Part shown: positions 354 through 61,431 of the stretch, in pieces
Position numbering within the stretch: the stretch's first letter is position 1
Layout: each line of letters starts with the position of its first letter
Assembly: GCF_023744375.2 (NCBI RefSeq)
Contig: NZ_CP146284.1
Coordinates: 1,922,001 to 1,986,000 of the forward strand
Length of the DNA: 64,000 nt
Direction: 5' to 3'
Source: Parabacteroides sp. AD58
Lineage (GTDB): Bacteria; Bacteroidota; Bacteroidia; Bacteroidales; Tannerellaceae
Notes under the pieces: model-generated
Databases searched by the model: none
What the model was told of the DNA's origin: nothing
What the model saw: only the letters and a program-made list of their open reading frames with translations
Made by a program: the position numbers and the translations under genes

Positions 354-983
354 ACATTTGATACACCAAATCACCCGTTGCGAGGTCGCGTGAGCACATT
401 TGATGCACCAAATCACCCGTTGCAAGGGTGCGTGAGCATATTTGATGCACCAAATCACCCGTTGCGAGGTCGCGTGAGCACATTTGATGCACCAAATCAC
501 CCGTTGCGAGGTCGCGTGAGCACATTTGATGCACCAAATCGCCCGTTGCGAGGTCGCGTGGGCACATTTGATGTACCAAATCGCCCGTTGCGAGGTCGCG
601 TGAGCACATTTGATGCACCAAATCGCCCGTTGCGAGGTCGCGTGGGCACATTTGATGTACCAAATCGCCCGTTGCGAGGGTACAAGGGTACATTTGATGC
701 ACCAAATCACTTGTTGCGAGGGTGCAGGAGCAGATTGTAGATCGACAAACACCCCTTGCGGAGTTGCGTGGGCAAATTGAAGACCGACAAACACCCCTTG
801 CAGGGTCGCATGGGCAGATTGATGACCAACAAACACCCCTTGCAGGGTCGCGTGGGCAGATTGAAGATCGACAAACACCCGTTGCGGGGTTGCGTGAGGG
901 GATTGAAGATCGACAAACACCTGTTGCGAGGTCACAAGGGGAGATTGAAGACCGACAGACACCTCCTGCAAGTCTGCAAGAGC
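354..983. repeat. 42-bp tandem array, 15 units in two sequence classes
   Basis: Units start at 354, 396, 438 and so on every 42 bp through 942 with no length variation. Nine class-A units (354-731) carry a dyad ATTTG-n6-CAAAT, and six class-B units (732-983) replace it with TTG-n8-CAA. All share a GC-rich second half containing a dyad of the form GCGA-n2-TCGC or a degraded version. In class A the two dyad centres fall at unit positions 10.5 and 31.5, exactly 21 bp apart. Units 5-6 and 7-8 look like a recent 84-bp duplication because they share the same alternating variants. Because 42 is divisible by three, spurious open frames run through it on both strands. No spacers, so not CRISPR. Confidence 0.93.
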
Positions 984-1131
984 GATTGCCTGCGTATCTT
1001 TTTCCTCCCTTATCTGTCCGCATTCTACCCGTATTTTATCTTCCTTGTCCTTATAAACTACTGAACCACAATAGATAGAGAAGAGTTCCATTTGTCCGCC
1101 TATAAAATAAAGGAATCCGATAAAGCCATAC

Positions 1132-1139
1132 TACCTTTG
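1132..1139 (+). promoter_or_regulatory. Promoter -7 box for the DUF4837 gene
   Basis: TACCTTTG matches the Bacteroidota -7 consensus TAnnTTTG and lies 55 bp before the start codon at 1195. No convincing -33 TTTG is visible at the usual distance. Confidence 0.5.
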
Positions 1140-1194
1140 CCTCTGTACTTTTTCACTCATATTTGTTTATTCAGGTTTAATAGAAAATGGCTTT

Positions 1195-2190
1195 ATGAAA
1201 ACGAAACATCTACTCTCGATTCCTCTCCTGTTGAGTGGAATCGCATTACTCGGACTGGCGAGTTGTAATTCCGGTTCCATCATCAAGCGGGCCACCGGAG
1301 TTCCGTATGAAGTACTGGTTGTAATGGATACGAGCTTATGGAAAGGACAAGTTGGAGAAGCAGTCCGCGATAAACTCCAGGAATCCTACCCTGCCCTGCC
1401 TCAGGCGGAACCAACGGCTGCCATCTCCTATTGCGAACCGGCATCTTTCAACGATTTCATGCGTTATGTACGCAACATCCTGTTGGTGGATATCAATCCT
1501 AACGCTTATACAAAAGTCTCACTCATTGCCGACAAGGATGTATGGGCCAATGGGCAACAAGTGATGCGTCTTCAGTCTCCTTCAGCAGATTCTCTGTTGT
1601 TGTATATGCAAGGGAAGAACAATGATATTCTAACCTATATCCGGCAACTGGAACAGAAACGCTATGCCCAATATCTGCAGGAAAACCACAACAGCCTGCT
1701 GGCAGAAAAGACACGTTCATCTCTGCAGCTGGAAATCTGTGCCCCGGAAGAGATGAATTCTTCGCAGATCGATTCTACATTTCTCTGGTTTTCCAACAAT
1801 GCGAACACCGGACGGATGGATCTGATCTTCTATGCTTTTCCAGCAGAAAATGCTGACGCGCTTGACAAGTCGCATCTTGTAGCCATGCGAGACTCAGTAA
1901 CCCGACTGCATATTCCAGGTTCGTTTGAAGGATCGTACATGACAACAGAAAGTCGTTTTCCAGTCGAATATGAACCATTACCCAACGGGAAACAGCCAGG
2001 TGCTGTGATACGTGGCTTGTGGAAAATGCAAGGCGACATGATGGGCGGACCATTTGTCTCGTATGCCTGGTATGATGCGCCCCGCCATCGGGTAGTTGTA
2101 GCAGAAGGATTCGTCTATGCTCCCGAAACCAACAAGAAACTCTATATGCACCGGCTGGAATCCGCCCTGCTCACGGCACGGATTTTATAA
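1195..2190 (+). CDS. DUF4837 family lipoprotein
   Basis: A 331-residue protein with a lipoprotein signal (basic start, hydrophobic stretch, LLGLASC lipobox with Cys about residue 25), so probably anchored in the envelope. The body matches my memory of DUF4837, a Bacteroidota-only family of unknown function (an early VPYEVLVVMD segment, a RGLWKMQGDMMGGPFVSY block near the end). It is preceded by a TACCTTTG box. Its last 6 bases overlap the end of the convergent methyltransferase gene. No function should be inferred beyond envelope location. Confidence 0.8.
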   Translation: MKTKHLLSIPLLLSGIALLGLASCNSGSIIKRATGVPYEVLVVMDTSLWKGQVGEAVRDKLQESYPALPQAEPTAAISYCEPASFNDFMRYVRNILLVDINPNAYTKVSLIADKDVWANGQQVMRLQSPSADSLLLYMQGKNNDILTYIRQLEQKRYAQYLQENHNSLLAEKTRSSLQLEICAPEEMNSSQIDSTFLWFSNNANTGRMDLIFYAFPAENADALDKSHLVAMRDSVTRLHIPGSFEGSYMTTESRFPVEYEPLPNGKQPGAVIRGLWKMQGDMMGGPFVSYAWYDAPRHRVVVAEGFVYAPETNKKLYMHRLESALLTARIL

Positions 2191-3576
2191 CACTAACCGA
2201 CGGATTTCTTCCGGATTATAACTGCTGCGGATGCGCCACTCTTGCGGATAAAGGTTATTCGCCCGGTTTCCTAAATTCTTCACGAATCCGATAGGACGCT
2301 GCTGATAAGTCAGCAAGACATACCCTTTCTCCGCATCAGCCGGAAGCACCAGCGCTTCTTTCCGGAAATAACGGATAGCCGTCTCATCATCCACTTCACA
2401 TAGGGGGAAAGCTGTTGGATTTAAGGCTGTACTCAACGCCAATGCTTGCGCCGGCACCCAGTCTTTTCCCTTCCATTCGCCCAATTCGATTCCTGCAGAA
2501 AGGATATGAAGTTTCTCTTGCAGTAATGGATAGATTGCTTGTACTTCGGAGGGCAGCAAAGACAGACGACTATCATTCCAGACGGGTTGATAAGTCTCGC
2601 TTGCACGAACAGCAGCAAGGATGGATGCCGGGATGTCGGGTTGCTTCTTACCTTTCTGTTTCTTGTCTTTATTCTTGGTCTTGATCCGAAGCTCCTCTCG
2701 TTCGCCATCTGCTTTCCGCAGAGCCGCCAGAAAAAAGCCTTCACCGCGTGTCCGATGTGGGAAAAACCGATATACCGGATTTGCATATTTCAAGGCTCCA
2801 CACACGCCCCAAGCATCTTCGATCGGAATAGACAATGGCTCGGCTCCCAGTTCATCGATGATGTATTGGATGTTCTCCTCATCTTCTTCCGTATTATACG
2901 TACAAGTACTGTACACCAGCAAGCCACCGGGTTTCAGGGCATTCCAGATATCATGAAGGATACGCCGCTGACGGGAAGCACAAAGCCCGACATTCGCCAC
3001 ACTCCACTCACCCGTACTATCTGTATCCTTACGGAACATGCCTTCGCCCGAACAGGGCACATCTGTTACAATCACATCAAAGAGATGAGTCAGTTCCCCC
3101 ACTTCTGCCGGATCATTATTCGTGACAACATGGTTCGGATAGCCCCATTTCTGGATATTCTCTGCCAGAATATAGCTGCGCGACCGGATTACTTCATTGC
3201 TTACCAGTACACTTCCTTCGGGAAGAAGGCTCAACAGATGAGTAGATTTTCCTCCCGGTGCCGCACATAAGTCCAGACAGACCACCGGTTCCTGAACATA
3301 CGTCCGGACTGCCTGTTCAAGGAACATCGACGAAGCCTCCTGTACATAATAAGTGCCATTTTGGAACAACGGGTCGAAAGTGAACGAAAGGCGTTCGGGC
3401 AGATAATAACCCAGCTGGCTCCACGGAACCGGAGTTGCCTCCGGCCGCTTGTCGCTCTTCTTCGGATTTATTCGGATACTAACCGGGACATCCGCCATCA
3501 ACGCTTTTTCCAGTTCTGTATATTCGTCGCCTAAAAGTACCCGCGTACGGGTAATAAAATCAATAGGAAGTGCCAT
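2185..3576 (-). CDS. RsmB/RsmF-like rRNA (cytosine-C5)-methyltransferase
   Basis: A 463-residue NOL1/NOP2/Sun-type enzyme that would transfer methyl from SAM to C5 of a cytosine in rRNA. Visible features are the SAM-binding CLDLCAAPGGKSTHLL motif (about residue 107), the DVPCSGEGMFRKD motif with one conserved Cys, and STCTYNTEEDEENI with the second. The C-terminus holds a PUA-like RNA-binding tail ending NLGNRANNLYPQEWRIR, as in RsmF rather than RsmB. I chose the start at 3576 (MALPIDF) because it follows the divergent promoter at 3598-3605. Bacteroidales often carry a truncated RsmF of this size. Confidence 0.88.
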   Translation of the reverse strand: MALPIDFITRTRVLLGDEYTELEKALMADVPVSIRINPKKSDKRPEATPVPWSQLGYYLPERLSFTFDPLFQNGTYYVQEASSMFLEQAVRTYVQEPVVCLDLCAAPGGKSTHLLSLLPEGSVLVSNEVIRSRSYILAENIQKWGYPNHVVTNNDPAEVGELTHLFDVIVTDVPCSGEGMFRKDTDSTGEWSVANVGLCASRQRRILHDIWNALKPGGLLVYSTCTYNTEEDEENIQYIIDELGAEPLSIPIEDAWGVCGALKYANPVYRFFPHRTRGEGFFLAALRKADGEREELRIKTKNKDKKQKGKKQPDIPASILAAVRASETYQPVWNDSRLSLLPSEVQAIYPLLQEKLHILSAGIELGEWKGKDWVPAQALALSTALNPTAFPLCEVDDETAIRYFRKEALVLPADAEKGYVLLTYQQRPIGFVKNLGNRANNLYPQEWRIRSSYNPEEIRRLVL

Positions 3577-3597
3577 GTGTGCATGAATTGTTTCGTG

Positions 3598-3605
3598 CAA
3601 AAGTA
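3598..3605 (-). promoter_or_regulatory. Promoter -7 box for the RsmF-like gene
   Basis: Read leftward the sequence is TACTTTTG, a TAnnTTTG match 22 bp before the start codon at 3576. It is separated by one base from the rightward -7 box at 3607-3614, so the two divergent transcripts start within a few turns of DNA. Confidence 0.6.
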
Positions 3606-3606
3606 C

Positions 3607-3614
3607 TACATTTG
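3607..3614 (+). promoter_or_regulatory. Promoter -7 box for the RsmI-like gene
   Basis: TACATTTG, a TAnnTTTG match 16 bp before the start at 3630, implying a very short leader of about 10 nt. A TTG at 3588-3590 is a possible -33 element, overlapping the start region of the divergent transcript. Confidence 0.6.
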
Positions 3615-3629
3615 CGGAAAATTAGAACT

Positions 3630-4334
3630 ATGCAAGCATCATTATATCTGATACCGGTCACCTTGGGCGATACCGAACATCGCCGGGTATTGCCGGACTA
3701 TAACCGGGATGTCATCTTGGGCATCCGTCATTTCATTGTCGAGAATGTCCGCACGGCACGCCGCTTCTTGAAGAAAGTGGAACCATCCATTGTGATCGAC
3801 GACTTGACTTTCTATGAACTGAACAAGCACACATCGCCTGAGCAGGTGGCAGGCTATCTGAATCCGCTGGCTCAAGGCGAATCGGTAGGTGTGATTTCCG
3901 AAGCCGGCTGTCCGGCTGTAGCCGATCCGGGAGCCGATGTGGTAGCGATTGCCCAGCGCAAACATTATCGGGTCGTTCCTCTGGTAGGTCCGTCGTCTAT
4001 TATTTTATCCGTGATGGCATCCGGATTTAACGGACAGAGTTTTGCTTTTCATGGTTATCTGCCTATCGATGCAGCGGAACGTACCAGTACCATCAAGAAG
4101 CTGGAAGGACGGATTTATGCCGAGAACCAGACGCAGCTCTTTATCGAAACGCCTTACCGCAACCGTAAACTGGCAGAAGAACTGATCCGTACCTGCCGCC
4201 CGTCCACGAAGCTGTGTATTGCGTCGAATATCACTTGTGCAGATGAATGTATCCAGACACGTCCGGTTAAGGATTGGGCCGGGAAGTTACCCGATTTCGA
4301 CAAGAAACCGACCATCTTCTTAATCTATAAATAA
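3630..4334 (+). CDS. RsmI-like SAM-dependent methyltransferase (tetrapyrrole methylase fold)
   Basis: 234 residues of the COG0313 type, related to RsmI, which 2'-O-methylates C1402 of 16S rRNA. Visible motifs are [19 protein letters not shown] (about residues 87-105), corresponding to the GTPGISDPG loop of RsmI, and [15 protein letters not shown], the SAM-binding region. It is shorter than the classical E. coli enzyme of about 286 residues, which is common in Bacteroidota. The start is ATG at 3630 because the promoter box ends at 3614; the upstream extension of the frame would overlap the divergent promoter. One base separates it from the next gene, so the two are probably co-transcribed. Confidence 0.8.
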
Positions 4335-4335
4335 T

Positions 4336-4917
4336 ATGGGAAACTACGAAGCACATCCAACAGCCGTCATCGACGAAGGCTGTCAGATCGGAGAAGGCAC
4401 ACACATCTGGCACTTCTCGCACATCATGTCAGGCTGCCGTATCGGGAAGTATTGTAATATCGGGCAAAATGTAGTCATCTCGCCCGGTGTAGAAATCGGT
4501 AATCAGGTAAAGATTCAGAACAACGTGTCTGTCTATACCGGTGTTATCTGTGAAGACGAAGTTTTCTTAGGACCCAGTTGTGTCTTCACCAATGTAATCA
4601 ATCCGAGAAGCGCCATTTCCCGCAAGCATGAATACCGGAGTACCCGTGTGAAACGAGGAGCCACCATCGGAGCCAATGCCACCATTGTCTGCGGACATGA
4701 CATCGGCGAATATGCCCTCATCGGAGCGGGAGCCGTTGTTACCAAAGACATTCCGCCTTATGCCTTAGTCGTAGGCAATCCGTCCCGACAAATCGGCTGG
4801 GTCAGTGAATACGGCTGCCGCCTCGAATTCGACAAACACGGCCACGCTGTCTGTCCGGAAAGCGGAGAACATTACATCTTAGAGAATAATCAAGTGCGGA
4901 AAATAAAGAATGGATAA
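4336..4917 (+). CDS. WbpD-like sugar N-acetyltransferase (left-handed beta helix)
   Basis: 193 residues made largely of hexapeptide repeats ([IV]GxxxxI pattern from residue 8 to about 150), the left-handed beta-helix of trimeric acyl-CoA acyltransferases. It looks closest to WbpD/WlbB-type UDP-2-acetamido-3-amino-glucuronate N-acetyltransferases, which build O-antigen or capsule sugars ([31 protein letters not shown] near the end is typical). The C-terminus carries a short [11 protein letters not shown] segment seen in that subgroup. No other nucleotide-sugar genes are adjacent, so the precise substrate is inference. Confidence 0.75.
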
Positions 4918-4950
4918 TTGACCGGCGAACTCCGATTGCAATTATCCATT
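4909..4950 (+). terminator. Stem-loop at the end of the acetyltransferase gene
   Basis: A perfect 12-bp inverted repeat (4909-4920 with 4939-4950) whose left arm includes the stop codon. It sits between convergent genes and could stop transcription or protect the 3' end. There is no strong U-tract, so an intrinsic terminator is only possible. Confidence 0.4.
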
Positions 4951-4975
4951 CACTACTAGGAATATTTTTAGATTG

Positions 4976-6223
4976 TCAATGATCAAGCGCAGGCAAAATG
5001 TCGGAAAGTATTTTATCGGTCGCACCTACCTGGCTGGCCACGAAATCGCCTGCGGCTTTTCCGGCGGCCTGCATCACTTCCGGGTGCGTGATAAACTCGT
5101 TCATCTTATCTTCAAACTCTGCTATCGAATGAATTGAGAAACCACCGCCAACCTCTATTAAGTCTTTGGCTTCCTTAAACTTCTTATAATTCGGACCGAA
5201 CAGCACCGGAATACCATAAACAGCCGCTTCGAGTGTATTGTGGATGCCGACTCCAAAACCACCACCGATATAGGCCATCTCGCCATACCGATAGACTGAG
5301 GATAAGAGGCCAAAGTTATCTATAATCAGGCAATCCTTACCTTCCAAGTCTTTTTCTGACTGGACTTCCGTCAGACGGATAAAAGGCCGTTCCAGCAGTG
5401 CTGCAATCGAAACCAGATGACTCTGGTGAATTTCGTGCGGAGCAATGATCAGTTTCATCCGTTCCTGCTTGTTGAAATACGGAATAATTACCTGTTCATC
5501 CTGTGGCCAGGAACTGCCTGCCACTAATGTCAGCAGTTTCTCTCCTTTTTCATTATGCACGAACTTGTCGATCAGCGGCAAATCCTTGGCCTGATTCCGA
5601 ACTTCCTGAACCCGGTCGAAACGCGTATCGCCTGTTACTGTCACATTGTGAATGCCATATTCGGCCAACAACGCCTTTGAACGTTCATCTTGCACATACA
5701 AGTGCGTGAAGCAGTGTAACATTTTCCGATAAGGAGCGCCAAACCACTGGAAGAACAACTGGTCAGGACGGAAAATGGCGGAGATAATATAAACCGGAAT
5801 ATTCCGTTTCTTGAGAGCGGCTAAATAATTCCCCCAAAATTCATATTTGATAAAGACGGCAGCTACCGGATGTGCCAGCTTCAGGAATTTGTTCACCCGA
5901 TAAGGAGTGTCGAAGGGCAGATAGCAAATGACATCGGCACCGGCATAATTCTTGCGTACCTCATATCCCGAAGGAGAAAAGAATGTCAGCAGGATTTTAT
6001 ATTGCGGATACCGGGCCTTGATCCTCTCCATCATAGGCCGTCCTTGCTCAAACTCGCCCAACGAGGCCGCATGGAACCAGATATATTTTTCTCCCGGCTG
6101 AATCTGTGTACGCAGAATACGGTTGGTACGCCATTGCCCCAGACGCATGGTCCGTGCTTTCTTATGAAACGGAGCGATCAATTCGATGATCAGGGAGTAT
6201 AAATGAATAAGCAGGCTGTACAT
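4976..6223 (-). CDS. waaA: 3-deoxy-D-manno-octulosonic acid (Kdo) transferase
   Basis: 415 residues, the normal size for WaaA/KdtA, a GT30 enzyme that adds Kdo from CMP-Kdo to lipid A precursors at the inner membrane. Recognisable parts are the N-terminal membrane anchor (residues 1-20), IWFHAASLGEFEQGRPMMERI, LLTFFSPSGYEVRK, and the C-terminal CMP-Kdo binding part with YIGGGFGVGIHNTLEAAVYGIPVLFGPNYKKF. Bacteroidetes use a single WaaA for the Kdo core. It is transcribed leftward, downstream of gltX, with 182 bp between the two genes. Confidence 0.92.
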   Translation of the reverse strand: MYSLLIHLYSLIIELIAPFHKKARTMRLGQWRTNRILRTQIQPGEKYIWFHAASLGEFEQGRPMMERIKARYPQYKILLTFFSPSGYEVRKNYAGADVICYLPFDTPYRVNKFLKLAHPVAAVFIKYEFWGNYLAALKKRNIPVYIISAIFRPDQLFFQWFGAPYRKMLHCFTHLYVQDERSKALLAEYGIHNVTVTGDTRFDRVQEVRNQAKDLPLIDKFVHNEKGEKLLTLVAGSSWPQDEQVIIPYFNKQERMKLIIAPHEIHQSHLVSIAALLERPFIRLTEVQSEKDLEGKDCLIIDNFGLLSSVYRYGEMAYIGGGFGVGIHNTLEAAVYGIPVLFGPNYKKFKEAKDLIEVGGGFSIHSIAEFEDKMNEFITHPEVMQAAGKAAGDFVASQVGATDKILSDILPALDH

Positions 6224-6405
6224 GGTTATTTAGGAGGTTAATAAGTAGACAAGTTGACAAGAGAACAAATTAACAAGGACTGAAGTCTTATCTTTCCTTG
6301 TTTATTCATCTGCTTATCAACTTATCCACTCTGTTTGTTTTATTTCTATTATCAAATGAAGTCCCGTCAATCCGTCACTTTATCAACGGTCTGCTTCATT
6401 TCTTC

Positions 6406-7923
6406 TTATCCCAAAACGTCAATAGCACGCTGGATACGACGAATCGTTTCTTCCTTACCCAAGGCTTCTGTGATATCAAAGATATGCGGACCCTTGCCTT
6501 CGCCAACTAAAGCCAAACGGGTGGCATTCATGATATTTCCCAAGTGATAGCCTTTGCTTTCAATCCAGGCTTTTGCCACATTTTCGGTACTTTCAATATC
6601 AAACGGCTCATGTGCGCGCAAGACTTCGATGAACTCTGTCAGCTGGGCAGCGCTGTCTTCTTTCCAGCGTTTCTTCCGGGTCTTTTCGTCATATTCAGTC
6701 GGAGCTACAAAGAAGAAGGCACATACATTCCACAGCTCCTTGATAAAGCTGACGCGGTCTTTCATCATGCCGACCACTTTCTCGACATAGGCTGGATCAG
6801 CCTCCACGCCATGCTCTTTCAAGATTGGCATGAACAAAGCGGCAATTTCCTTGTTGTCTTTCCGCTGAATATACTGGTGATTAAACCATTTTCCTTTCTC
6901 GTAGTCGAACTTCGCACCGCTCTTGCTGCAATGAGCCAGATTGAAGGCTTTGATCAGTTCGTCCATACTCATCACTTCCTGATCATTTCCCGGATTCCAG
7001 CCTAACAAAGCCAGGAAGTTGACAACCGCTTCCGGAAGATAGCCACTTTCACGATAACCCGAAGAAACATCACCGGTCTTCGGATCATGCCATTCCAACG
7101 GGAAAACCGGGAATCCCAGACGGTCGCCATCGCGCTTACTCAGCTTTCCGTTACCTTCGGGCTTCAGCAGCAATGACAGATGGGCAAACTGAGGCATCGT
7201 ATCGGCCCAACCGAAATAACGATACAGCAGAACATGCAACGGAGCACTTGGCAACCACTCTTCACCACGGATCACGTGTGTTACTTCCATCAGGTGGTCG
7301 TCTACAATGTTAGCCAAGTGATAGGTTGGCAGTTGGTCTGCTGATTTATACAGCACCTTATCATCCAGAATTGATGAATTGATAACTACTTCTCCACGAA
7401 TCAAATCATGCACATGTACGTCTTCATTCGGTTCAATCTTGACACGAACAACATACTGATTGCCGGCATCTATCAGCGCCTTTGTCTCTTCCGGAGAAAG
7501 AGTCAGTGAATTACGCATCTGCATACGGGTAGATGCGTCATACTGGAAGTTTGGAATTTCCTTCCGCTTTGCCTCCAGTTCCTGTGGAGTATCAAAAGCA
7601 ATATAGGCATGACCGGCTTCCAACAGCTGGTCTACATATTTCTTATATATTTCACGACGTTCGCTCTGGCGATATGGGCCATAGTTTCCTCCGAAACCGA
7701 CTCCCTCATCGAAATGAATACCTAACCAGGTAAGTGCTTCAATAATATAAGCCTCTGCTCCCGGCACGAAACGCTGTGAATCAGTATCTTCAATACGGAG
7801 AATCAAGTCTCCGCCATTTTGCTTGGCAAATAGATAATTGTATAAAGCTGTACGAACTCCTCCGATATGCAAAGCTCCTGTTGGGCTCGGTGCAAAACGG
7901 ACTCTTACCTTTCTTTGAGTCAT
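6406..7923 (-). CDS. gltX: Glutamyl-tRNA synthetase
   Basis: 505 residues; charges tRNA-Glu with glutamate in the cytoplasm. The class I signature is clear: [24 protein letters not shown] (HIGH motif at residues 19-22) and KLSKRDGD (KMSKS equivalent, about residue 257). The C-terminal all-helical anticodon-binding part is complete. A TACTTTTG -7 box lies at 7952-7959, 29 bp before the ATG. The region after the stop (6224-6405) has no gene and contains degenerate GTTGAC/GTCAAC words. Confidence 0.96.
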
Positions 7924-15728: not shown

Positions 15729-15810
15729 TGTGGATCAATGTGGATCAGTGTGGATCAATGTGGACGAAATGGGATCAATGTGGATGAAATGGGATCAAAG
15801 TGGATGAAAA
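15729..15810. repeat. 10-bp direct-repeat array with DnaA-box-like 9-mers
   Basis: Eight consecutive 10-bp units from 15731 to 15810. On the leftward strand four 9-mers match the canonical DnaA box TTATCCACA at 8 of 9 positions: TGATCCACA at 15729-15737, 15739-15747 and 15749-15757, and TCATCCACA at 15779-15787. Two weaker ones are at 15759 and 15799. GATC occurs in five units. The array is directly upstream of a replication-initiator-like gene, which suggests iterons of a former phage or plasmid origin, or a DnaA-controlled promoter. Confidence 0.8.
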
Positions 15811-22590: not shown

Positions 22591-22642
22591 TTTCTTGAAG
22601 TATAAAGTTAGTTGAGAATTATTTGATTTCAACATGAAAAGC

Positions 22643-23039
22643 CTACTCATACGCCGGATTCAATTTATAAAACACCAATGCCGGATTTGTATCATCCGTA
22701 CCCGCATTCATGATTTTCAGATACTCTTCATTGGCCAAATGCGCGTTTTCCTTGATAGGAACAGGTGTGAATGAGGTGACAAAAAAGTCGCCATACAGGC
22801 AAATGGGATTACCGATCGAAAACATACCTTTTTTCAACACTTGATTGCGTGTACGATAAGGCTTTCATATCGGTTGCATCAATCTCAGTATAATCACTTT
22901 CAACCCGAGGAATATTGCCGACATTATCACTGACCACCAGTTTCATTTCCTGTTGATCCACTTCCGGAGCTGCTTGTTTTTTACCTGTACAGGAGAACCC
23001 CAAGACTAAGGTTACCAAAATAGAAATGTGTTTGTTCAT
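22643..23039 (-). pseudogene. Frameshifted remnant of a beta-propeller-type lipoprotein gene
   Basis: Two short frames read on across a run of six A (leftward strand, 22829-22834). The first (from ATG 23039) has a lipoprotein signal (MNKHISILVTLVLGFSC) and ends in a nonsense tail YVFDR; removing one A joins it to GMFSIGNPICLYGDFFV and to a C-terminal end NPALVFYKLNPAYE. The joined product is only 131 residues, with a blade-like start and a propeller-like tail, so the middle also seems to have been deleted. It stands directly upstream of the intact propeller gene and may be a decayed paralogue. Confidence 0.6.
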
Positions 23040-23350
23040 CGTATTTTGTTTTTTAGATTAATGATTTTTTTCACTTCCAACGATAAGAAAAAAGGCCTAC
23101 AAGTACATCAGGTCTTAACGTGTAAAACATGGTATTCGCTTTCATACAATGGCTAAATTGTGAGATTTTATCAACTGATTATAAATTCGCATAGCCTAGA
23201 GAAAAATCATACTAAGCCTTACACAAAAGTAGCTTTTTTTAAATAAAAACAAATGTTTTTTGAGAAAATCATTCCTCATTCTTTCTTTTTTCCCCTATTT
23301 ATTATACCTTTATCGGCGTGAGCGATCTTTGTTTTGCTTCAAAGTTTCCG

Positions 23351-23575
23351 TGTAAGCTGCACGAAGTCGGTGTAGGGCTACAGAAGTCCCATGCAGGCTG
23401 CACGGCGTTTTTGTAGGCCTACAAAAGTCTCTTGCAGGCTGCACGGCGTTTCCGTAGGCCTACAAAAGTCTCTTGCAGGCTGCATGGCGTTTCCGTAGGC
23501 CTACGACGGGTTCATGCAGGCTACACGGGGTTTTTGTAGGGCTACGACAGATTCATGCAAGCCTGCACGAAAATT
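23351..23575. repeat. 41-bp tandem array, about 5.5 units
   Basis: Units begin at 23351, 23392, 23433, 23474, 23515 and 23555. Each has two perfect dyads in its best copies: TGCAG-n-CTGCA centred at unit position 8 and GTAGGCCTAC centred at 28.5, exactly half a period apart. The flanks of the dyads vary. The array occupies most of the 594-bp spacer between a decayed lipoprotein gene (leftward) and the DUF6261 gene (rightward). The rest, 23040-23350, is AT-rich and I see no gene there. No spacers, so not CRISPR. Confidence 0.92.
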
Positions 23576-41121: not shown

Positions 41122-41296
41122 CGTTTTTCCTGGATAAAGCAAGACAAAATCCTATTGATTCTTTCTTCTCGAAATTCCCACCAAATCTTTTTCGCAAACA
41201 AGAAGTAAAAAAAGGCCTGACAGATAAAGAACAAACAGACTTTATTCCCCGAAGCTGTAAATATCTTATTAAAATGTCTTTTTAAATAAACCGTTT

Positions 41297-41365
41297 CACC
41301 CGGGTGAGACGATCGTTCCACCTATGTGAGACGATCGTTCCACATAGGTGAAACGATCATTCCAC
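41297..41365. repeat. 22-bp tandem array, left part, interrupted by an IS3 element
   Basis: Three complete 22-bp units start at 41297, 41319 and 41341; a fourth begins with CAC at 41363 and continues on the far side of the IS at 42961-42982. Each has two dyads: CACC-n2-GGTG-like (CACCCGGGTG, CACCTATGTG, CACATAGGTG) centred at unit position 5.5 and ACGATCGT centred at 16.5, exactly 11 bp apart. Confidence 0.92.
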
Positions 41366-41564
41366 TGTCATTTAACGAATTTGGTTGACTTAAAATCTCT
41401 TTATAAATAGAAGGGGTTGACTGTAGTTTAACTTATTTATATACTGAGTTGACTCATTTTTTTGTTATTCACCCTGCAGGTTGTCTTTTCTTATTTTGGG
41501 CAAAAATAAACAAAGATCTTTTATCCTGATAAAAATAATGAAAAAACCACCGCGGTGGTTTGCC

Positions 41565-42494
41565 TTACGGCTGGAGGCGCGAAGCCTCCAAAGAGTTTGT
41601 CTCCACCTGGTTGGCAGAAACGAAGGCATTAGACATTTCTCCTTGGATGGCTAATTCCCGATAACTCTTCCAGCGTTTCTTTATTGTTCCCCTCATTGCG
41701 GAGGCTTCAGCAGGAGTTATACCGTCCAGACTCAAATGAGGACGCTCATTGTTATAGAAATCGACCGCTATCCTTATAGCTGATTTAACTTCCGATACGC
41801 CGTAAAAGGATTGCCCCAAAAGGAGTTCATTCTTAATTGTATTGTTGACTCGTTCCGCCACGGCATTATCTTTGGGATTGCCGCTTTCGGTCATGCTTAT
41901 CTTTATATGATGTTCCTTCAACCGGGAGATATAACTGTAACAGGCATATTGGACACCACGGTCCGAGTGATGGATCAATCCATTAAGATCCTTGCCCTTA
42001 TAATAGGCCAAGGCCATGTTCAATGCGTCCAAAGGATAACGGGCTTCCAGCGTGTCGCCCACACTGTAACCGATGATTTCCTTTGTGTAGTAATCCGTTA
42101 CTAAAGAAAGATAGCAGAAATCGTACTCGCCCGTTTCCGGCTTTGTCCAGTAAGGTATATAGGTGATATCGCTGACTATCAGCTGGCAGGGACGATCCGG
42201 AATGTATGTCTTAATCAGATTCGGATAGACTGGATACTCATGGTCGGAATCGGTTGTCTTGACGCGTCTTTTCCGTTTACGGACTTTCAGGCCATAACGT
42301 TCGATGATGTCATAGAAACGGTTATAACCCACGCTATGGGAACCAAACCGGCTCTGGTACATCTGCCAAAGCTTGTTCCCTCCTATGCCCGGATCTTTCC
42401 CTCGGATTTCCTTGATAAACTCCACAACGAAAGATTCTTCCATCAGACGTTGCAGTACCTTGTCCTCATGCTTATAGTAGGCTTGTTTACTCAC
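41565..42494 (-). CDS. IS3-family transposase OrfB (DDE integrase core)
   Basis: 309 residues of the rve/IS150-like catalytic protein: an HTH_21 segment (GIGGNKLWQMYQSRFG) followed by the DDE core with IVSDITYIPYW (first Asp), LIHHSDRGVQYAC (second Asp) and PKDNAVAERVNNTIKNELL (Glu). The frame stays open upstream to the A7 run at 42575-42581, so the real product is a fusion with OrfA made by -1 frameshifting. The extension carries RRLHERDRERYKVVPLCRLLGV, typical of OrfB starts. Confidence 0.93.
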   Translation of the reverse strand: MSKQAYYKHEDKVLQRLMEESFVVEFIKEIRGKDPGIGGNKLWQMYQSRFGSHSVGYNRFYDIIERYGLKVRKRKRRVKTTDSDHEYPVYPNLIKTYIPDRPCQLIVSDITYIPYWTKPETGEYDFCYLSLVTDYYTKEIIGYSVGDTLEARYPLDALNMALAYYKGKDLNGLIHHSDRGVQYACYSYISRLKEHHIKISMTESGNPKDNAVAERVNNTIKNELLLGQSFYGVSEVKSAIRIAVDFYNNERPHLSLDGITPAEASAMRGTIKKRWKSYRELAIQGEMSNAFVSANQVETNSLEASRLQP

Positions 42495-42559
42495 ACCAAG
42501 CAGACGGCACAGGGGAACGACCTTATACCGTTCCCTGTCCCTTTCATGCAGCCTACGGA

Positions 42560-42919
42560 CTACTTGGTGCCAGCTTTTTTTAGCTTTATGCCATACACTT
42601 CCTCGCCATAGGCGACCATCTCTTGGTAGAAATCTGCGCGCAAACGCTCTTCGGCCAATGCTTTCTTCAGTGACGACAACTCTTCGAGGAGCTTCTTGTA
42701 GTCTTCCGGCGTCACGTCTTTTCCTTGCTTTTTCATGAGTTCTGCTTCTAGAGGATTTTCTCGTTCAAAGGTAGCTATTATTCGATAAATGCTCGAACGA
42801 CTTACTCCATATTGTTGAACCACTTCCTGGATGGAGACGTTGTCTTGCTTTACCAAACGGAAAATCTCTCTTTCCTGATTCTTCCGAAACTTCTCTTGTT
42901 CATAATTGCTTTCTTTCAT
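42560..42919 (-). CDS. IS3-family transposase OrfA
   Basis: 119 residues. A helix-turn-helix (VSIQEVVQQYGVSRSSIYRIIATFE) is followed by a coiled-coil (PEDYKKLLEELSSLKKALAEERLRADFYQEMV). The last codons contain an A7 slippery run (leftward strand at 42575-42581) where the -1 shift into OrfB would occur. Confidence 0.9.
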   Translation of the reverse strand: MKESNYEQEKFRKNQEREIFRLVKQDNVSIQEVVQQYGVSRSSIYRIIATFERENPLEAELMKKQGKDVTPEDYKKLLEELSSLKKALAEERLRADFYQEMVAYGEEVYGIKLKKAGTK

Positions 42920-42960
42920 CTTCTTGTTTTTTAGGAGTCAACCTTATTTACAAAAAGACA

Positions 42961-42982
42961 CACAAGGGTGAAACGATAAAAT
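42961..42982. repeat. Right part of the interrupted 22-bp array
   Basis: CACAAGGGTG followed by AAACGATAAA continues unit four of the array at 41297 after the IS3 element; the first CAC is the target duplication. The second dyad is degraded here and the array ends. Confidence 0.75.
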
Positions 42983-54582: not shown

Positions 54583-54634
54583 GCTTGCTATCCATATAAA
54601 ATCCAGTAGCTTCACAACGTAAGCCAAACTTCCA

Positions 54635-54642: not shown

Positions 54643-54796
54643 AAAAACTGTTGACATAAAAACAGCAAAAAGAGACAATTTTATATAGAAATGATAATCT
54701 GATCCTCCAAATACCGACAAAATCAAGGAAAGAAGATTGACAATTCATGTCTTTCACGGGAAGACTTACTATTTTCTTCGTTTATTTTTAATTAAA

Positions 54797-54884
54797 TCAC
54801 CATAGTGAATTAATTAATTCACTAATATGATGCGATCAATTCACCAATATGAATCAATTAATTTACCTATGTGAATCAAATAAT
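54797..54884. repeat. 22-bp tandem array, four units, TTCAC/GTGAA type
   Basis: Units start at 54797, 54819, 54841 and 54863 without length change. The first has a perfect dyad TCAC-n4-GTGA centred at unit position 6.5 and AATTAATTAATT centred at 17.5, exactly 11 bp apart. The other units keep one or both in degraded form (TTTACCTATGTGAATC is nearly symmetric). The array lies in the 444-bp spacer between the fucosidase 3' end and the sulfatase promoter. The remaining bases hold a weak hairpin (TTGGCAAGGAA at about 54951 with TTCCTTGCCAA at about 54989). Confidence 0.9.
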
Positions 54885-56421: not shown

Positions 56422-58168
56422 GATCAAGTTTCTTTTGTTCCTTCAGAAAATCCACAATACGGTCCAACCAAGTGTAACTTCCGGTTCCAGGACTCGCCTT
56501 GCTTTGGAAACAGTGATTGCGCAAAGCCAAGGTATGAAGCTCGGACTGAATGCCCATGCTTCGCATCTTTTCCCATACTTTTACCGAACCCATGGCAGAA
56601 TATACATCGGCATCGCCATGAATGAAAAGCATCGGTGCTGTACTTAGGTCGAAACTGAATTCCGGAGCTAACGTCACATTCTCATCATTCCCCTTATTTG
56701 TATTTGGCCCATCAAAGCCATCTGAAAGAACATAAGCCGGATAGATGCCAATGCCCCATTGCACATCACAAGGAAGTTTATCAATTTCATCTATCGGCAA
56801 GTAAGAATTATGTCGAGAAGAGGTAACACCCATCAACGTAAGATGTCCGCCAGCCGAACTGCCCATTATACCTATCTGATCCGGATCAAGTCCGTAAGTT
56901 GCAGCCTGAGAACGAACAAGGCGGATTGTACGCTGCAAATCTTCCCAAGCTGTTATATGTTTGGATAATCCTTTAGGACGAGGCGTCCGGTAACGGAGCG
57001 TAACCACAGTCATACCTAGTTTATTGAGAAGTCTACGTGCCGGAGCAACTTCAAACCCATTCGGATCATTGCCTTCATACGATCCTCCACTATAGATAAT
57101 TTGTATAGCCTTTGTCTTTAATACTTTGGGGAAGTGCCACTCAATATAAGGCAACAGCTGATGTTCTTGTGCATTGGGCATCTTACCGTCAGGCCATACA
57201 TTTTGTTTCACTACTTCTTTCCGGTCTTCATCACCCGCATAACGTGTCATAATATCAACCTCCTGATCAAGCGGTCCCATAATACCTATCTGGCGAAGGA
57301 ACTCGACTCCGCGCTCTAAGCCATAAGCTCCATGCCCTTTGTTAGGATACAAATGCAATTCAGCCGGTATATTCATACTGCGCAGTTTATGATAAACCAA
57401 CGTACTGCCGTTGGGAGAATATTCATCCATTCCTCCATGATGCAGACTCATCGGACAGGTTTTATCATCAAAACGGAAACAAGCAGACAGCCGTACATCA
57501 GGTCCGTATCCTTGTAACCAGGCAGGTATTCCGGCTTCACCATCCGTTGTTACGTAAGCAGGTGCATTTACAATCGCATAATTGATATGACAAGGGATTG
57601 TGTCAAACTGATCAATCGCTTCATAGGCCGGAACAGAAGAACTCGTAGCCAACATCAACGCCAGATGAGAACCTGCCGACATGGAAATAACCCCTATTTT
57701 TTCAGGATCAAAGCCATGTTTCCCCGCTTCACTTCTAACAAGGCGGATTGCGCGTTGTCCGTCTTCCCAAGCCGTCTGATAAATAGGTATTCCGATGGGA
57801 CGAGGCGTACGATAAACCAGATTCACACATTGAAATCCTAAATCAGAGAATGTTTTCTTCCACAGTTCAATCAGATTCATATCACAACAACTGTTATAAG
57901 CGCCACCTGATATAAGCACCATACATGCCTTATTGGCTATGGCCGGATCCGGCTTTTCATACCATTCCAGATAAGCAATCCGATGTTTGTCGGCATCAAA
58001 GTCAGCCTTCTCTGCCTCATCCAACATAGAAGCTATCTGATGTGACTGCGCATCCGGCATCTTGTCTGCAGGCCAGATAGGCTGACGTTCTTGGGCATTA
58101 CCATAAAAGGCACATAACAGCCCAACCAAGAGAAACATTACCCTCTTCAATTCAACTTTTGCATCCAT
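56414..58168 (-). CDS. Tandem-duplicated alpha/beta hydrolase, secreted (probable glycan esterase)
   Basis: 584 residues with signal peptide (LKRVMFLLVGLLCAFYGNAQ). The mature protein is two copies of an esterase-like domain. Copy 1 (about 40-310) has VNLVYRTPRPIG, TAWEDGQRAIRLVRSEA and nucleophile elbow SMSAGS; copy 2 (about 320-584) has VTLRYRTPRPKG, TAWEDLQRTIRLVRSQA and SSAGGH. Each ends in its own Asp/His-like region (HHGGMDEYS and HGDADVYSA). The similarity of the blocks indicates an internal duplication. Operon head, followed by the fucosidase. Start ATG 58168. Confidence 0.87.
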   Translation of the reverse strand: MDAKVELKRVMFLLVGLLCAFYGNAQERQPIWPADKMPDAQSHQIASMLDEAEKADFDADKHRIAYLEWYEKPDPAIANKACMVLISGGAYNSCCDMNLIELWKKTFSDLGFQCVNLVYRTPRPIGIPIYQTAWEDGQRAIRLVRSEAGKHGFDPEKIGVISMSAGSHLALMLATSSSVPAYEAIDQFDTIPCHINYAIVNAPAYVTTDGEAGIPAWLQGYGPDVRLSACFRFDDKTCPMSLHHGGMDEYSPNGSTLVYHKLRSMNIPAELHLYPNKGHGAYGLERGVEFLRQIGIMGPLDQEVDIMTRYAGDEDRKEVVKQNVWPDGKMPNAQEHQLLPYIEWHFPKVLKTKAIQIIYSGGSYEGNDPNGFEVAPARRLLNKLGMTVVTLRYRTPRPKGLSKHITAWEDLQRTIRLVRSQAATYGLDPDQIGIMGSSAGGHLTLMGVTSSRHNSYLPIDEIDKLPCDVQWGIGIYPAYVLSDGFDGPNTNKGNDENVTLAPEFSFDLSTAPMLFIHGDADVYSAMGSVKVWEKMRSMGIQSELHTLALRNHCFQSKASPGTGSYTWLDRIVDFLKEQKKLDHE

Positions 58169-58590
58169 ATTTTTCACTATTAACATATTAACGGAATTAA
58201 CTCAGTGCTTATTCAACATTGCGAACCGGTTTACCATTTTTGTAGTTAATAATCATAATGCGGAATTACTGGCGGGCTTTTCATCCCGACTCAATTAGGA
58301 GATATGTCTTTCACGTATCCTTTACATAATGTCATACAATCATGGGTTGCCGTAGTCTGCTTCAACTTCATTCAAATATGAATACTTTTCCATATTTGAC
58401 TTTCTCAGATCCAAAGAAGGTATAACTTCATTTAACATCAAAGAGCCGTATTCAAAAAGCTGTACTTAATTTACCTCTTCAGATTTCCCGATTGTGCAAA
58501 TATAAACATTATTCACCGTAAGAGACAGCCTTAACTATAAATTTGAAACGGTTTCTTTTTATTTCTGGTTTTTACTCTTCATAAAATCTG
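58169..58590. other. 422-bp spacer with a distant promoter box
   Basis: No gene that I can support. A leftward TATATTTG at 58496-58503 implies a leader of about 320 nt before the hydrolase ATG if it is the promoter. Within it are a hairpin TCAAATATG-n8-CATATTTGA (58373-58400 region) and a leftward 15-codon frame ending at about 58212. No known RNA family is recognisable. The MFS gene ends at the right edge. Confidence 0.4.
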
Positions 58591-59817
58591 TCAGCTTCTA
58601 TGTAGCTTCTTCAAAGCCCAGCTCATTCGATAATATACGGCATGAAAAGATGTGGCTAAAGCCATCATCAAGAGGATAAGCAGAACTCCGACAAAGATAT
58701 TCCAGCCGTATTGTGATAAAATAATGCCGGTTAACGAACCTAACAAACTGGAACCTGCATAATAAAACAGCCAGTAAATGCTGGTCGCACTGCTTTTGGC
58801 TTCGCCGGCATGGATGGAAACAATCCGGCTTGCCATTGTATGGGCACTGAAAAAGGCAAAGGTAAAGATTCCTAATCCGACGATAATGGCGACCAACTGC
58901 TGAATCCAGAGCAGAGACAGACCTATACACATGAGAAGCAGCGAAGCCTGTAACAGGACTTCCGGGCGATACCGGTCTGACAAGGTCCCGGTTACAATCG
59001 AACCGGCTACTCCGGTTATGTACATCATAAAGATCATGGCAACCCACTGATGGGGCAAACCAAACGAAGGGGATTCCAGCAGGATGGAAAGATAATTGTA
59101 AACACTGACGAAAGTTCCCATGGAAAGGGCGGCAATTCCATACATCCGGAGAAAGACAGGCTGCCCCAAGAGTATCTTCATCTGATTTACCTGCTGTCTT
59201 ACGGAAAGCTTCCTACGGATATTATGCTGTGATGCCGGAATCTTCCGGACAAAAATATAGCCTAACAGCAAACTGACCAGACCTATCAGCGCCGCTGCGT
59301 ACTGCCATCCGCCCCAACCCGAAAGCAATGTGCTGGCAACACGACCTGACATTCCGCCAATGGTATTGCCACTTAAATAAAGACTGATGGCAAGTCCGAT
59401 GACCGACCGGTCTACTTCATCGGTCAGATAAGCCAAAGCGACGGCCGATACTCCCGATAAGGCAAAGCCTTTCATGAAGTTGATGACCAGCAGCCACATG
59501 AATCCGGTGATAAACGAAGAGGCTATCGTCAGCAAAGAAGAGAGCAGCAGAGCCATGCCCATCAGTTTCTCCCGCCGAAAAGCGTCGGCCTTGAAAGCAA
59601 AGAACAACAAACCCGTTGCCATTCCGATGGTTGAAGTGGATACAGCCAGACTGCTGGTTGGCAAATCGACCTGAAAAGAACGACACAAATCTGACAACAT
59701 GGGCTGAAACAAATATAATTGGGCGAATACGGATAAGCCGGAAAGAAACATACAATTGCGAATCCGATGGAATTTCTTCACTTCGTCGCTCGGATGTATA
59801 GCTGATGAATACTTCAT
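58591..59817 (-). CDS. Major facilitator superfamily transporter
   Basis: 408 residues with about 12 hydrophobic helices; an inner-membrane permease of the AraJ/YnfM-like type (opening CMFLSGLSVFAQLYLFQPMLSDLCRSF and LRREKLMGMALLLSSLLTI-like loops). Substrate not predictable; efflux of sugars or drugs is common for this group. A TACTTTTG box lies at 59849-59856, 32 bp before the ATG, so it is transcribed by itself. Confidence 0.88.
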   Translation of the reverse strand: MKYSSAIHPSDEVKKFHRIRNCMFLSGLSVFAQLYLFQPMLSDLCRSFQVDLPTSSLAVSTSTIGMATGLLFFAFKADAFRREKLMGMALLLSSLLTIASSFITGFMWLLVINFMKGFALSGVSAVALAYLTDEVDRSVIGLAISLYLSGNTIGGMSGRVASTLLSGWGGWQYAAALIGLVSLLLGYIFVRKIPASQHNIRRKLSVRQQVNQMKILLGQPVFLRMYGIAALSMGTFVSVYNYLSILLESPSFGLPHQWVAMIFMMYITGVAGSIVTGTLSDRYRPEVLLQASLLLMCIGLSLLWIQQLVAIIVGLGIFTFAFFSAHTMASRIVSIHAGEAKSSATSIYWLFYYAGSSLLGSLTGIILSQYGWNIFVGVLLILLMMALATSFHAVYYRMSWALKKLHRS

Positions 59818-59848
59818 GATAATGTTGAATACATAATGTTTGATGCCC

Positions 59849-59856
59849 CAAAAGTA
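59849..59856 (-). promoter_or_regulatory. Promoter -7 box for the MFS gene
   Basis: Read leftward: TACTTTTG, 32 bp before the ATG at 59817. The gap to queA also contains the queA terminator. Confidence 0.5.
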
Positions 59857-59929
59857 GATGATTTGTCGGAAAGGCCTGGTATGACAAAAATTCTTTTTTT
59901 CTATAAGCGTTATTGATAAAACCGAAAAA

Positions 59930-59987
59930 GGGCATAAAACGACAAGGTTTCAGCCTTACTGCCTGCTTGCAGAGACTGAAACCTTGT
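59930..59987 (-). terminator. queA terminator
   Basis: Leftward hairpin with perfect 12-bp arms ACAAGGTTTCAG (59942-59953 pairing with 59976-59987) followed by GTTTTATG, 23 bp after the queA stop. Confidence 0.75.
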
Positions 59988-60009
59988 CTGATTTAATCAC
60001 AACTATTCT

Positions 60010-61230
60010 TTATAACAGCAACGAGCTGTCGCCATAACTCAAGAATCGGAAATCATGACTGAGGGCATAATCATAGATAGTCCGCCAGTTCCCTTTGACA
60101 AAAGCCGAGATCAGCAACAGCAATGTACTCTTGGGCTGGTGGAAATTCGTAATGATTCCACGGACAACCTTAAACTCATAGCCCGGGGCAATAATAATCT
60201 GCGTAGCCGTAACCAGCTTATCGGCCTGATGTCGGTCCAGATAATCCAGAATCAACTGCAGGGCATCGGCTACCGGAATCTGGTTGTTTGCCTCCTCGTA
60301 AGGCATCCATTGGTTCACAACCAGCTCTTCTGAAGTAGCATCCGGATGAAAAGCCAGTTTCACTCCTATATAATACAGACTTTCCAAAGTACGCACAGAA
60401 GTAGTTCCCACGGCAATTATCTTTCCCAAGTTCTTCTGAATACGTTCGATTGACGAACGACGGACGGAAATAAACTCCGTATGCATCTCGTGCCCTTCGA
60501 TGGTTTCACTCTTGACCGGCTTGAAAGTCCCGGCACCCACGTGCAAGGTTACTTCCTCACGGCCGATACCATGCGCATCTACATCCGCCAGAACTTCGGG
60601 TGTAAAATGCAAACCGGCAGTCGGAGCCGCTACCGATCCTTTTATCTTAGAATAAACCGTCTGATAGGTTACCAAATCGCTCTTTTCCGTTTCCCGGTGC
60701 AAATAAGGAGGAATCGGCAGAACTCCGGCCGCATCCAGCAGGTCGGCAAACGTATATTTTGGATTATCCCAGGTAAATTCAATCCGGTGGCTGTCGCCAT
60801 GACTTTCTTTCTTTTCGGCCGAAAGCGTCACTTCCTCGCCTTGAACAGTCACCTTCTTGGTCAGAATACCTTCTTTCCATTTCTTCAGATTTCCCACCAG
60901 ACAAATCCAACTGCATCGTTCCGTCTGTTGAAAGATCAAGGCATAATCATGCGGTTCGGCAGGTTCCAGGCAAAATACCTCAATCCGCGCACCGGTTGCC
61001 TTCTGAAACAAAAGCCTTGCCTGAATAACCCGCGTATTGTTGTAAACCAGCAGTGAACCCTTGGGCAAATAATCGGCTATATGCTTGAATACACTTTCCG
61101 AAATCTGTCCGTCTTTATATAATAACAGTTTCGATTCATCCCGTTTTGCCAGAGGGAATTTGGCAATTCGCTCATCCGGCAGCGGATAATCGTAATCTTC
61201 TATGCGTATCTGTTGTGTCTTGTTACTCAT
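60010..61230 (-). CDS. queA: S-adenosylmethionine:tRNA ribosyltransferase-isomerase
   Basis: 406 residues, making epoxyqueuosine on tRNA from SAM and the preQ1-modified base. Typical QueA stretches are DYPLPDERIAKFPLAKRDESKLLLY, LVYNNTRVIQARLL, GSVAAPTAGLHFTPEVL, EVTLHVGAGTFKPVKSE and TTSVRTLES, with HQPKSTLLLLISAF close to the end. The start at 61230 (MSNKTQQIRIEDYDYPLP) was preferred over the longer frame because the -7 box TACTTTTG is at 61250-61257, immediately upstream. A tandem array occurs between it and thyA. Confidence 0.95.
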   Translation of the reverse strand: MSNKTQQIRIEDYDYPLPDERIAKFPLAKRDESKLLLYKDGQISESVFKHIADYLPKGSLLVYNNTRVIQARLLFQKATGARIEVFCLEPAEPHDYALIFQQTERCSWICLVGNLKKWKEGILTKKVTVQGEEVTLSAEKKESHGDSHRIEFTWDNPKYTFADLLDAAGVLPIPPYLHRETEKSDLVTYQTVYSKIKGSVAAPTAGLHFTPEVLADVDAHGIGREEVTLHVGAGTFKPVKSETIEGHEMHTEFISVRRSSIERIQKNLGKIIAVGTTSVRTLESLYYIGVKLAFHPDATSEELVVNQWMPYEEANNQIPVADALQLILDYLDRHQADKLVTATQIIIAPGYEFKVVRGIITNFHQPKSTLLLLISAFVKGNWRTIYDYALSHDFRFLSYGDSSLLL

Positions 61231-61249
61231 CTTCCTGTTTTTTATCCTG

Positions 61250-61257
61250 CAAAAGTA
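61250..61257 (-). promoter_or_regulatory. Promoter -7 box for queA
   Basis: Read leftward: TACTTTTG, 20 bp before the ATG, about 90 bp from the edge of the 21-bp array. Confidence 0.5.
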
Positions 61258-61344
61258 CAAATATAGGCTGAATAAATACTTCCTGCCTCCGGTTTATTTC
61301 CTAAATCCCGGCAAGAATACATCCGAAAGAGACGAACAATTCTT

Positions 61345-61431
61345 TAGTTCACGGCGTGAACTAAGTAATCCACGACGTGAACTACTTAATCCAAGCCGTG
61401 AACTAAGTAATCCGCGCCGTGAACTAAAGAA
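61345..61431. repeat. 21-bp tandem array, four units, TTCAC/GTGAA type
   Basis: The motif CGTGAACTA recurs at 61355, 61376, 61397 and 61418. The first unit has the perfect dyad TAGTTCAC-n3-GTGAACTA (61345-61363); the others keep GTGAACT and lose the left arm in steps. A second dyad is weaker (ACTAAGT). It lies in the 337-bp divergent spacer between queA and thyA, with promoter boxes about 90 and 107 bp away. Confidence 0.9.

Follow-up and report, generated by a model that had tools for sequence, protein, structure and literature searches.

Five tandem arrays of short inverted repeats lie between the genes of a 64,000-nucleotide stretch of Parabacteroides sp. AD58 (contig NZ_CP146284.1, positions 1,922,001 to 1,986,000; hereafter the window), and their common layout raises the question of what kind of element they represent. 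The arrays, labelled A1 to A5 (Table 1), had been described with their periods in an initial annotation of this DNA, and both were confirmed using Tandem Repeats Finder and direct reading of the letters. On balance, A3, A4 and A5 (with less certainty also A2) are probably small, non-coding, non-autonomous elements dispersed over intergenic regions, which carry operator-type rows of sites and serve as landing sites for an insertion sequence (IS). Each element is a row of usually four palindromes with a centre-to-centre spacing of about two helical turns (21-22 bp), and the ends are inverted in A3 and A5. A1 differs in being a copy-variable 42-bp minisatellite, the symmetry of which is not significant.

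Dispersal and anatomy of the rows

Each array was searched against 38 genomes of the genus; as only part of the candidates was scored for A4 and A5 in genome G015 and for A3 in G030, these counts are lower bounds. G015, located via thymidylate synthase, is a sister species and the closest relative among the genomes compared, with 82-91% identity in syntenic blocks longer than 600 bp. A5 was found in three genomes, at at least 23 places in G015 and with a single weak match apiece in the other two. A4 occurs in two, at at least 17 places in G015 and for the remainder in G017, and A3 in six, at 22 places in G015 and at more in G011, G012, G030, G031 and G040. A2 is present in four genomes, and its three places in G015 are the ortholog, 98% identical across 250 bp, and two less similar matches of 77% each. 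Of A1, three places were found in G015 only, namely the ortholog in C2 and one each in C30 and C55.

All five arrays are present at syntenic positions in G015. They are not isolated features of single loci: A3, A4 and A5 form dispersed multicopy families, which could not be recognized from the letters of the window alone. The A1 ortholog (G015 C2, ~80625-81046) has ~10 units as compared to 15 in the window, so that copy number varies at the same locus as in a variable number tandem repeat. The A2 ortholog shows no length change across the 250-bp alignment, that of A3 is devoid of the IS that splits the window copy, and that of A4 has diverged with its 22-bp register kept. The A5 ortholog is located next to thyA, with queA 2.9 kb off in G015.

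A5 has sharp edges. Its copies in G015 span TTCTTTAGT to ACTAAAGAA, and the edge-to-edge length is 92 bp in 18 of the 22 copies of which the anatomy was recorded (the 23rd place, close to a contig end, was omitted) as well as in the window; two others measure 113-114 bp, one 71 bp, and one (L142) has a poorly anchored left edge. The number of sites is nearly fixed in A5 and A3: four dyads were counted in 18 of the 22 A5 copies, five in two and three in two, and four intact CAC-N4-GTG dyads at 22 bp in 19 of the 22 A3 copies in G015, two of the others having one damaged dyad and one being truncated. No clean count was obtained for A4. Terminal inverted repeats, a hallmark of miniature inverted-repeat transposable elements (MITEs), are present in both A5, in which they are 16 bp long, and A3, in which they lie near TTTTTAYCGTTTCAC. 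At seven loci in G030, the A3-type row is contained in a longer conserved block with, as judged by eye, a leader of ~45 bp and a tail of ~75 bp.

The alternation of two different dyads at half a period, to which the initial annotation attached weight, is in itself no evidence, since two axes separated by half a period are inevitable in any unit that is self-complementary when closed into a circle. The repeat units were, therefore, compared with their own shuffles. Self-complementarity was clear for A2 (30/41 positions, p=0.0004) and A3 (18/22, p=0.008) and borderline for A4 (16/22, p=0.049) and A5 (14/21, p=0.060). In A1, it did not significantly exceed that of the shuffles in either block (24/42, p=0.083, in the first and 20/42, p=0.63, in the second); the 21-bp placement of dyads said to look selected in this array can be read in its consensus, and this test did not show it to exceed chance. 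The TTCAC..GTGAA-like core reported for the three short arrays was recovered, CAC..GTG half-sites being present in A3, A4 and A5.

Insertion in register and recurrence of the two-turn step

The IS in the window was inserted in the fourth dyad of A3 and made a 3-bp target duplication, CAC (41363-41365 / 42961-42963), which is supported by a 3-bp overlap of the matches to the uninterrupted G015 copy. The left end of the same IS has at least 15 matches in G015 (40 of the 50 candidates were scored), all located at distances of 6-46 bp from an A3 copy (13 copies in all) and facing away from it; A3 copies with 50 bp on each side amount to ~0.1% of that genome. In the 14 of 15 cases that could be measured (the C10 end being too degenerate), the first base of the IS lies 19-21 bp (seven cases, one of them counted past a damaged dyad), 29 bp (one) or 41-42 bp (six) from a dyad centre; a further row at 75 was discarded as a chance match. 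The window copy, inside a dyad, has an offset of 20 bp from the preceding dyad centre. The presence of two main offsets, insertions on either side of the array and an ortholog without interruption argue for repeated insertion in register rather than the copying of a single block.

The same geometry recurs with other sequences. A sequence-blind scan of 2.84 Mb of Bacteroidota DNA for sets of four dyads at equal spacing (steps of 12-40 bp, threshold 27/36) gave 30 lattices, of which 27 have a step of 20.5-23 bp (11 at 21 bp, 14 at 22, and one each at 20.5 and 23) and three a different one (12, 14 and 16.5). Second-order Markov controls, with one replicate per group, gave none. G015 contributed nine lattices (22.9 per Mb) and G247 ten (50 per Mb), densities that are biased by the choice of these genomes. 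The thyA loci, which were chosen independently of rows, gave five in 1.32 Mb, including two with a 22-bp step; there were none in 160 kb of P. goldsteinii and none in 43 kb of G133 and G209. A gammaproteobacterial thyA locus (L079) was omitted from the counts, and threshold 26 gave two lattices in it (18 and 27 bp). When three dyads were used as seeds, 35 arrays were obtained at 20.5-22.5 bp, part of which are AT-rich and chance-like, as compared to two at 16-18 and 25-27 bp together. Four was the commonest number of dyads among the 35 (11 arrays with three, 19 with four, four with five and one with six).

Three CAC-N4-GTG sites at 22 bp were detected in five of 393 genomes of the order (at 14, 12, 6, 1 and 1 places), and the pattern read backward in none of them. 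The match in G008 consists of repeats of a single ten-letter word, so it is possibly unrelated. Those rows of G073, G300 and G247 that were read out have four dyads, and most have inverted ends. Several unrelated families were observed in G247 (L326-L335), in which threshold 26 gave 12 dyad lattices in 200 kb; rows of the TTGTTGATAATTATCAACAA type occur in this genome at two loci, and among the families there are two loci at which four identical site variants follow one another in identical order. Another four-dyad row at 22 bp, TCCTCCG..CGGAGGA-like and different in sequence from A1 to A5, was noticed in G015 (C1:88380, L280:8380). The suggestion that the shared two-turn plan is more than chance was thus borne out by its recurrence with unrelated sequences in other Bacteroidota and by the synteny of all five arrays in G015.

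Outside the chromosomes of the genus, a search of plasmids with A3 gave one match (Parabacteroides distasonis), and one with A5 gave none. In P. distasonis NZ_OY725759, a four-dyad A3-type row lies between a DUF4491 gene and secG. Its flanks are the same as those of the copy at G011 C1:205609, by which G011 is probably P. distasonis. The record (L374) is named plasmid 14 of P. distasonis and carries the chromosome-type genes ribH, secG and LptE, so that it may be a piece of the chromosome. The exact A5 core had no match in viral contigs, in which the row pattern marked 13 stretches, direct repeats mixed with a few dyad rows. One contig (L363) has a row of four palindromes (GCACG..CGTGC) at 22 bp, and another (L369) has three TTTCACAGGTGTGAAA-like palindromes at 22 bp shortly before an ATG, a putative gene start, in the manner of a phage operator.

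Proposed recognition of the palindromes and spread of the elements

Across 83 A3 dyads, no variation was seen in CAC, in GTG or in the C/G at ±10; positions ±6 to ±9 are variable, and the centre is hypervariable. Two further dyads, outside the search pattern, have CGC. Watson-Crick pairing amounted to 0.37 at ±6 as compared to 0.47 expected, and to 0.49 at ±7 as compared to 0.55 expected. No covariation excess was seen between adjoining A3 dyads or between the ends, and no significant covariation in 88 A5 dyads (smallest p 0.083). In 23 other arrays, picked from the dyad-lattice and three-dyad-seed scans, single uncompensated changes (92) were far more numerous than compensated ones (11). Near-invariant half-sites around a hypervariable centre, together with pairs that do not co-vary, favor recognition of duplex DNA over hairpins, and it is held with moderate confidence, on the pattern of substitutions, that the palindromes are read as duplex by a protein. 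It is quite improbable that the rows work as hairpins, be it in RNA or as cruciforms in DNA, with a role as insulator, terminator or RNA stabilizer. The palindromes are perfect or nearly so, and, by reading and pair counts, one strand of A5 is able to pair through G.U. The lack of compensatory change in A3 and of significant compensation in A5 argues against them, as do A3 ends that run mostly into A-rich rather than T-rich DNA in both directions, and Rfam at the gathering threshold matches tRNA only. Among the functions that had been offered for the arrays, those based on hairpins or RNA thus find little support, and protein binding on one face of the DNA seems to fit best.

In the proposed mechanism, each palindrome would be bound as duplex by a predicted dimeric protein, and four dimers would line up on one face of the helix, possibly cooperatively, as on phage-type operator rows. 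The elements would spread as non-autonomous passengers that are moved in trans by a separate enzyme, the IS3-family IS would land on a bound or structured row, and the rows may have an effect on genes.

Several observations weigh against this proposal. No binding protein or mover for A3, A4 or A5 was found in this analysis, nor was an empty site or a target duplication (A5 flanks were judged by eye), so that the mobility of the elements is presumed from their dispersal. G015 and G247, which supplied 19 of the 30 lattices, had been picked because they carry rows. In 250 kb of E. coli K-12, two lattices were found (19.5 and 23.5 bp), and three-dyad seeding gave one array at 20.5-22.5 bp and none at the control steps; the density of lattices is, therefore, not peculiar to Bacteroidota, the sharp step being so. 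The pattern by which A3 dyads were collected already demanded YAY-N4-RTR and favored conserved cores, as a consequence of which the invariance of the A3 core is somewhat overstated. One position co-varied (p=0.039) in the A4 set, which consists of 74 dyads and is noisy, with false ones included. Finally, the 11 compensated double changes in the 23 other arrays constitute a weak excess over a permuted mean of 7.1, a value of 11 being reached in 28 of 500 permutations; this excess also speaks for hairpins.

Other modes of spread have been considered. A doubtful but possible alternative is that the elements are MITEs which, as in the case of BrickBuilt in Porphyromonas gingivalis, are moved in trans by an IS-encoded DDE transposase, the tandem sites being internal filler. 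Inverted ends, a near-fixed length, ~20 copies and an intergenic location would all be explained, as would the leader and tail around the A3-type rows in G030, which resemble BrickBuilt in this respect. The ends, however, are half-dyads of the row itself, no target duplication is evident by eye at A5 copies, and the IS in the window, the only one examined, inserts into A3 and has different ends of its own. The recurrence of site number and two-turn step with unrelated sequences also argues against this alternative.

Movement of repetitive extragenic palindromes (REPs), bacterial interspersed mosaic elements (BIMEs) and REPINs as single strands in trans by a REP-associated tyrosine transposase (RAYT, a Y1 transposase) would account for dispersed intergenic palindromes in regular rows that are targeted by an IS, which are REP traits in the available portions of the literature (PMC1525189; PMC2817692). 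A Bacteroidetes RAYT subclass, 2.6, has atypical repeats without GT[AG]G according to the part of its description at hand (PMC6006769), and two Y1 matches were found in G031, one of the genomes with A3-type rows. PF01797, sought in the 38 genomes of the genus and in four others, is present in eight of the 38 and had no match in the drafts G015, G030, G012 and G011, all of which have A3-type matches. CAC-N4-GTG pairs at 22 bp or CAC-N3-GTG pairs at 21 bp, the patterns sought, were absent from all 18 Y1 loci (12 in the genus and six in G073, G247 and G300), and inspection by eye showed no conserved GT[AG]G foot where the A3, A4 and A5 copies end. Movement by a RAYT is unsupported by these searches and quite unlikely. 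An origin as local minisatellites that arose by slippage and have no other role suits A1, with its 15 as compared to ~10 units and its non-significant symmetry, though A1 has two other places in G015; for the whole set it is very improbable, because A3, A4 and A5 are dispersed and A3 and A5 have constant ends and usually four sites.

As an extension of the preferred interpretation, namely that of dispersed elements with operator-type rows, Bacteroidales might carry many sequence-unrelated families of one DNA machine, in which rows of four dimers would nucleate a phased protein array into the flanks. This would amount to a chromosome-organizing or silencing system with a co-diversifying binding protein and recognition sequence. 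The idea is speculative and rather unlikely; HU-related proteins, which are encoded beside some rows, would be one candidate binder.

Genomic surroundings and related systems

In the window, A3 and A5 sit between divergent genes and A4 between two minus-strand genes. By reading of the sequence, A1 is flanked by co-directional genes, and A2 by a minus-strand reading, not a listed open reading frame (ORF), and a plus-strand gene. The minus-strand reading (22640-23040) has a lipoprotein-like start, is not listed as an ORF of at least 90 aa and is perhaps a broken gene. A1 consists of two blocks (up to ~720 and from ~730), which have one half of the unit in common. A sixth array, absent from the initial annotation, is located at 15729-15809 between a minus-strand ORF and tRNA-Thr and has a 10/20-bp period (GTGGATCAAT..).

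Table 1 Coordinates of the arrays, the insertion sequence and the HU-related genes preceded by arrays (window positions unless a genome is named)
Feature	Position	Strand	Description
A1	350..970	.	42-bp minisatellite, 15 units, copy-variable
A2	23351..23575	.	41-bp unit, palindromes GTAGGCCTAC and TGCAGGCTGCA in turn, every 20.5 bp; array confirmed at 23371-23569
A3, left part	41292..41365	.	dyads 1 to 3 complete (CAC-N4-GTG cores, step 22 bp), left half of dyad 4
A3, right part	42961..42977	.	right half of dyad 4
IS3-family insertion sequence	41366..42960	-	inside A3 dyad 4; family by NF033516
IS3 transposase, integrase-core ORF	41565..42494	-	309 aa
First ORF of the IS	42560..42919	-	119 aa, helix-turn-helix; IS3 match under family cut-off
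A4	54790..54884	.	four units (54797-54884), step 22 bp, AT-rich outer arms
A5	61340..61431	.	92-bp element, four dyads, 21 bp; inverted-copy ends TTCTTTAGTTCACG..CGTGAACTAAAGAA
HU-related genes with upstream array, G015	C1:28343-28918, C5:87137-87526, C25:9796-10194, C9:609-926		TIGR01201
HU-related genes with upstream array, G011 and G247	G011 C1:2794062-2794442; G247 C4:33639-34022		TIGR01201

Of 62 copies of A3, A4 and A5 in G015, 49 have two clear neighbors, which are divergent in 18 cases, co-directional in 25 and convergent in six; the other copies lie close to contig ends or in short loci. The greater length of divergent spacers could explain this split. Phase-locked A..TTT is present in the A5 flanks at +18 to +23 and +40 to +45 beyond the element edge, the T at +23 being found in 36 of 45 flanks. 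Of 26 A4 flanks (13 copies), 25 have an A 36 bp from the last dyad centre and 20 have one 58 bp from it. A promoter reading of the A5 pattern was rejected because flanks toward gene ends (n=12) score as high (mean 5.92 of 8) as those toward gene starts (n=31; 5.42), and the proposed tie of the arrays to promoters was not upheld, the pattern being independent of gene direction. Intergenic TTT recurs on the same strand at 21-22 bp (L001-L058, L276-L349; 1.56-fold in G015 with the arrays removed), and the A5 flank signal may in part be this general phasing, for which no special status is claimed as E. coli shows 1.32-fold at 19 bp.

The largest neighbor cluster, at nine loci, encodes HU-related proteins (TIGR01201). 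A known array lies upstream of the start in four of 19 such matches in G015 (C1, C5, C25 and C9), which is a post hoc observation; one of 22 in G011 and one of 14 in G247 adjoin arrays found by the searches made. The A3 half-sites (GTTYCAC/GTGRAAC) bear a superficial resemblance to parS, with halves that are four bases too far apart, and a parS-like reading was set aside.

The constant geometry of about four palindromes at a two-turn step across changing sequences points to a common mechanism for a set of intergenic repeats of gut bacteria. Such repeats can be sought by geometry, where searches by sequence show unrelated fragments only. Phage operator rows of the lambda OR type likewise consist of palindromic sites about two turns apart, for cooperative dimers, a layout of which the three palindromes before an ATG in viral contig L369 are reminiscent; unlike these, the families described here have ~20 dispersed chromosomal copies each, beside various genes. 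IS1397 and ISKpn1 of enterobacteria use a palindromic repeat as preferred target, as the IS at A3 would. The insertions measured in G015 differ from theirs in lying beside the row, with its last dyad centre ~20 or 41 bp away, and the window copy in lying inside a dyad.

REP, BIME and REPIN elements are, in the portions of the literature available, dispersed extragenic palindromes that often form regular rows and into which some ISs insert (PMC2817692; PMC6006769; PMC1525189), and the rows in Parabacteroides are likewise dispersed extragenic palindromes. They are unlike REPs in that G015 and three other carriers have no Y1 match, in that the sites, usually four, are two turns apart and in that G015 and G247 each contain several unrelated families. 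BrickBuilt of P. gingivalis is described, in the accessible part of the report (PMC4596501), as having 19 copies with 23-nt tandem repeats (41 nt in MITE464/PgRS), inverted ends and predicted stem loops, a repeat number of 1 to 22.8, a leader and tail of up to ~300 nt and terminal repeats like those of an IS; of the four copies that could be tested, three have short target duplications. The elements described here share with BrickBuilt and MITE464/PgRS the dispersed intergenic location, the tandem repeats and the inverted ends; they differ in consisting of about four palindromic sites and nothing else, and no duplication was observed in them. That part of the report mentions dyad symmetry in passing and does not state a two-turn plan, a description of which was not found either in the best-ranked, mostly non-subscription papers on intergenic and palindromic repeats of Bacteroidetes. 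In conclusion, neither BrickBuilt nor REP fully fits, so that the arrays were not absorbed into an already named repeat family. They are best read as REP/BIME- and BrickBuilt-like; among named elements, BrickBuilt and MITE464/PgRS come closest, and in behavior REPs together with the ISs that target them.

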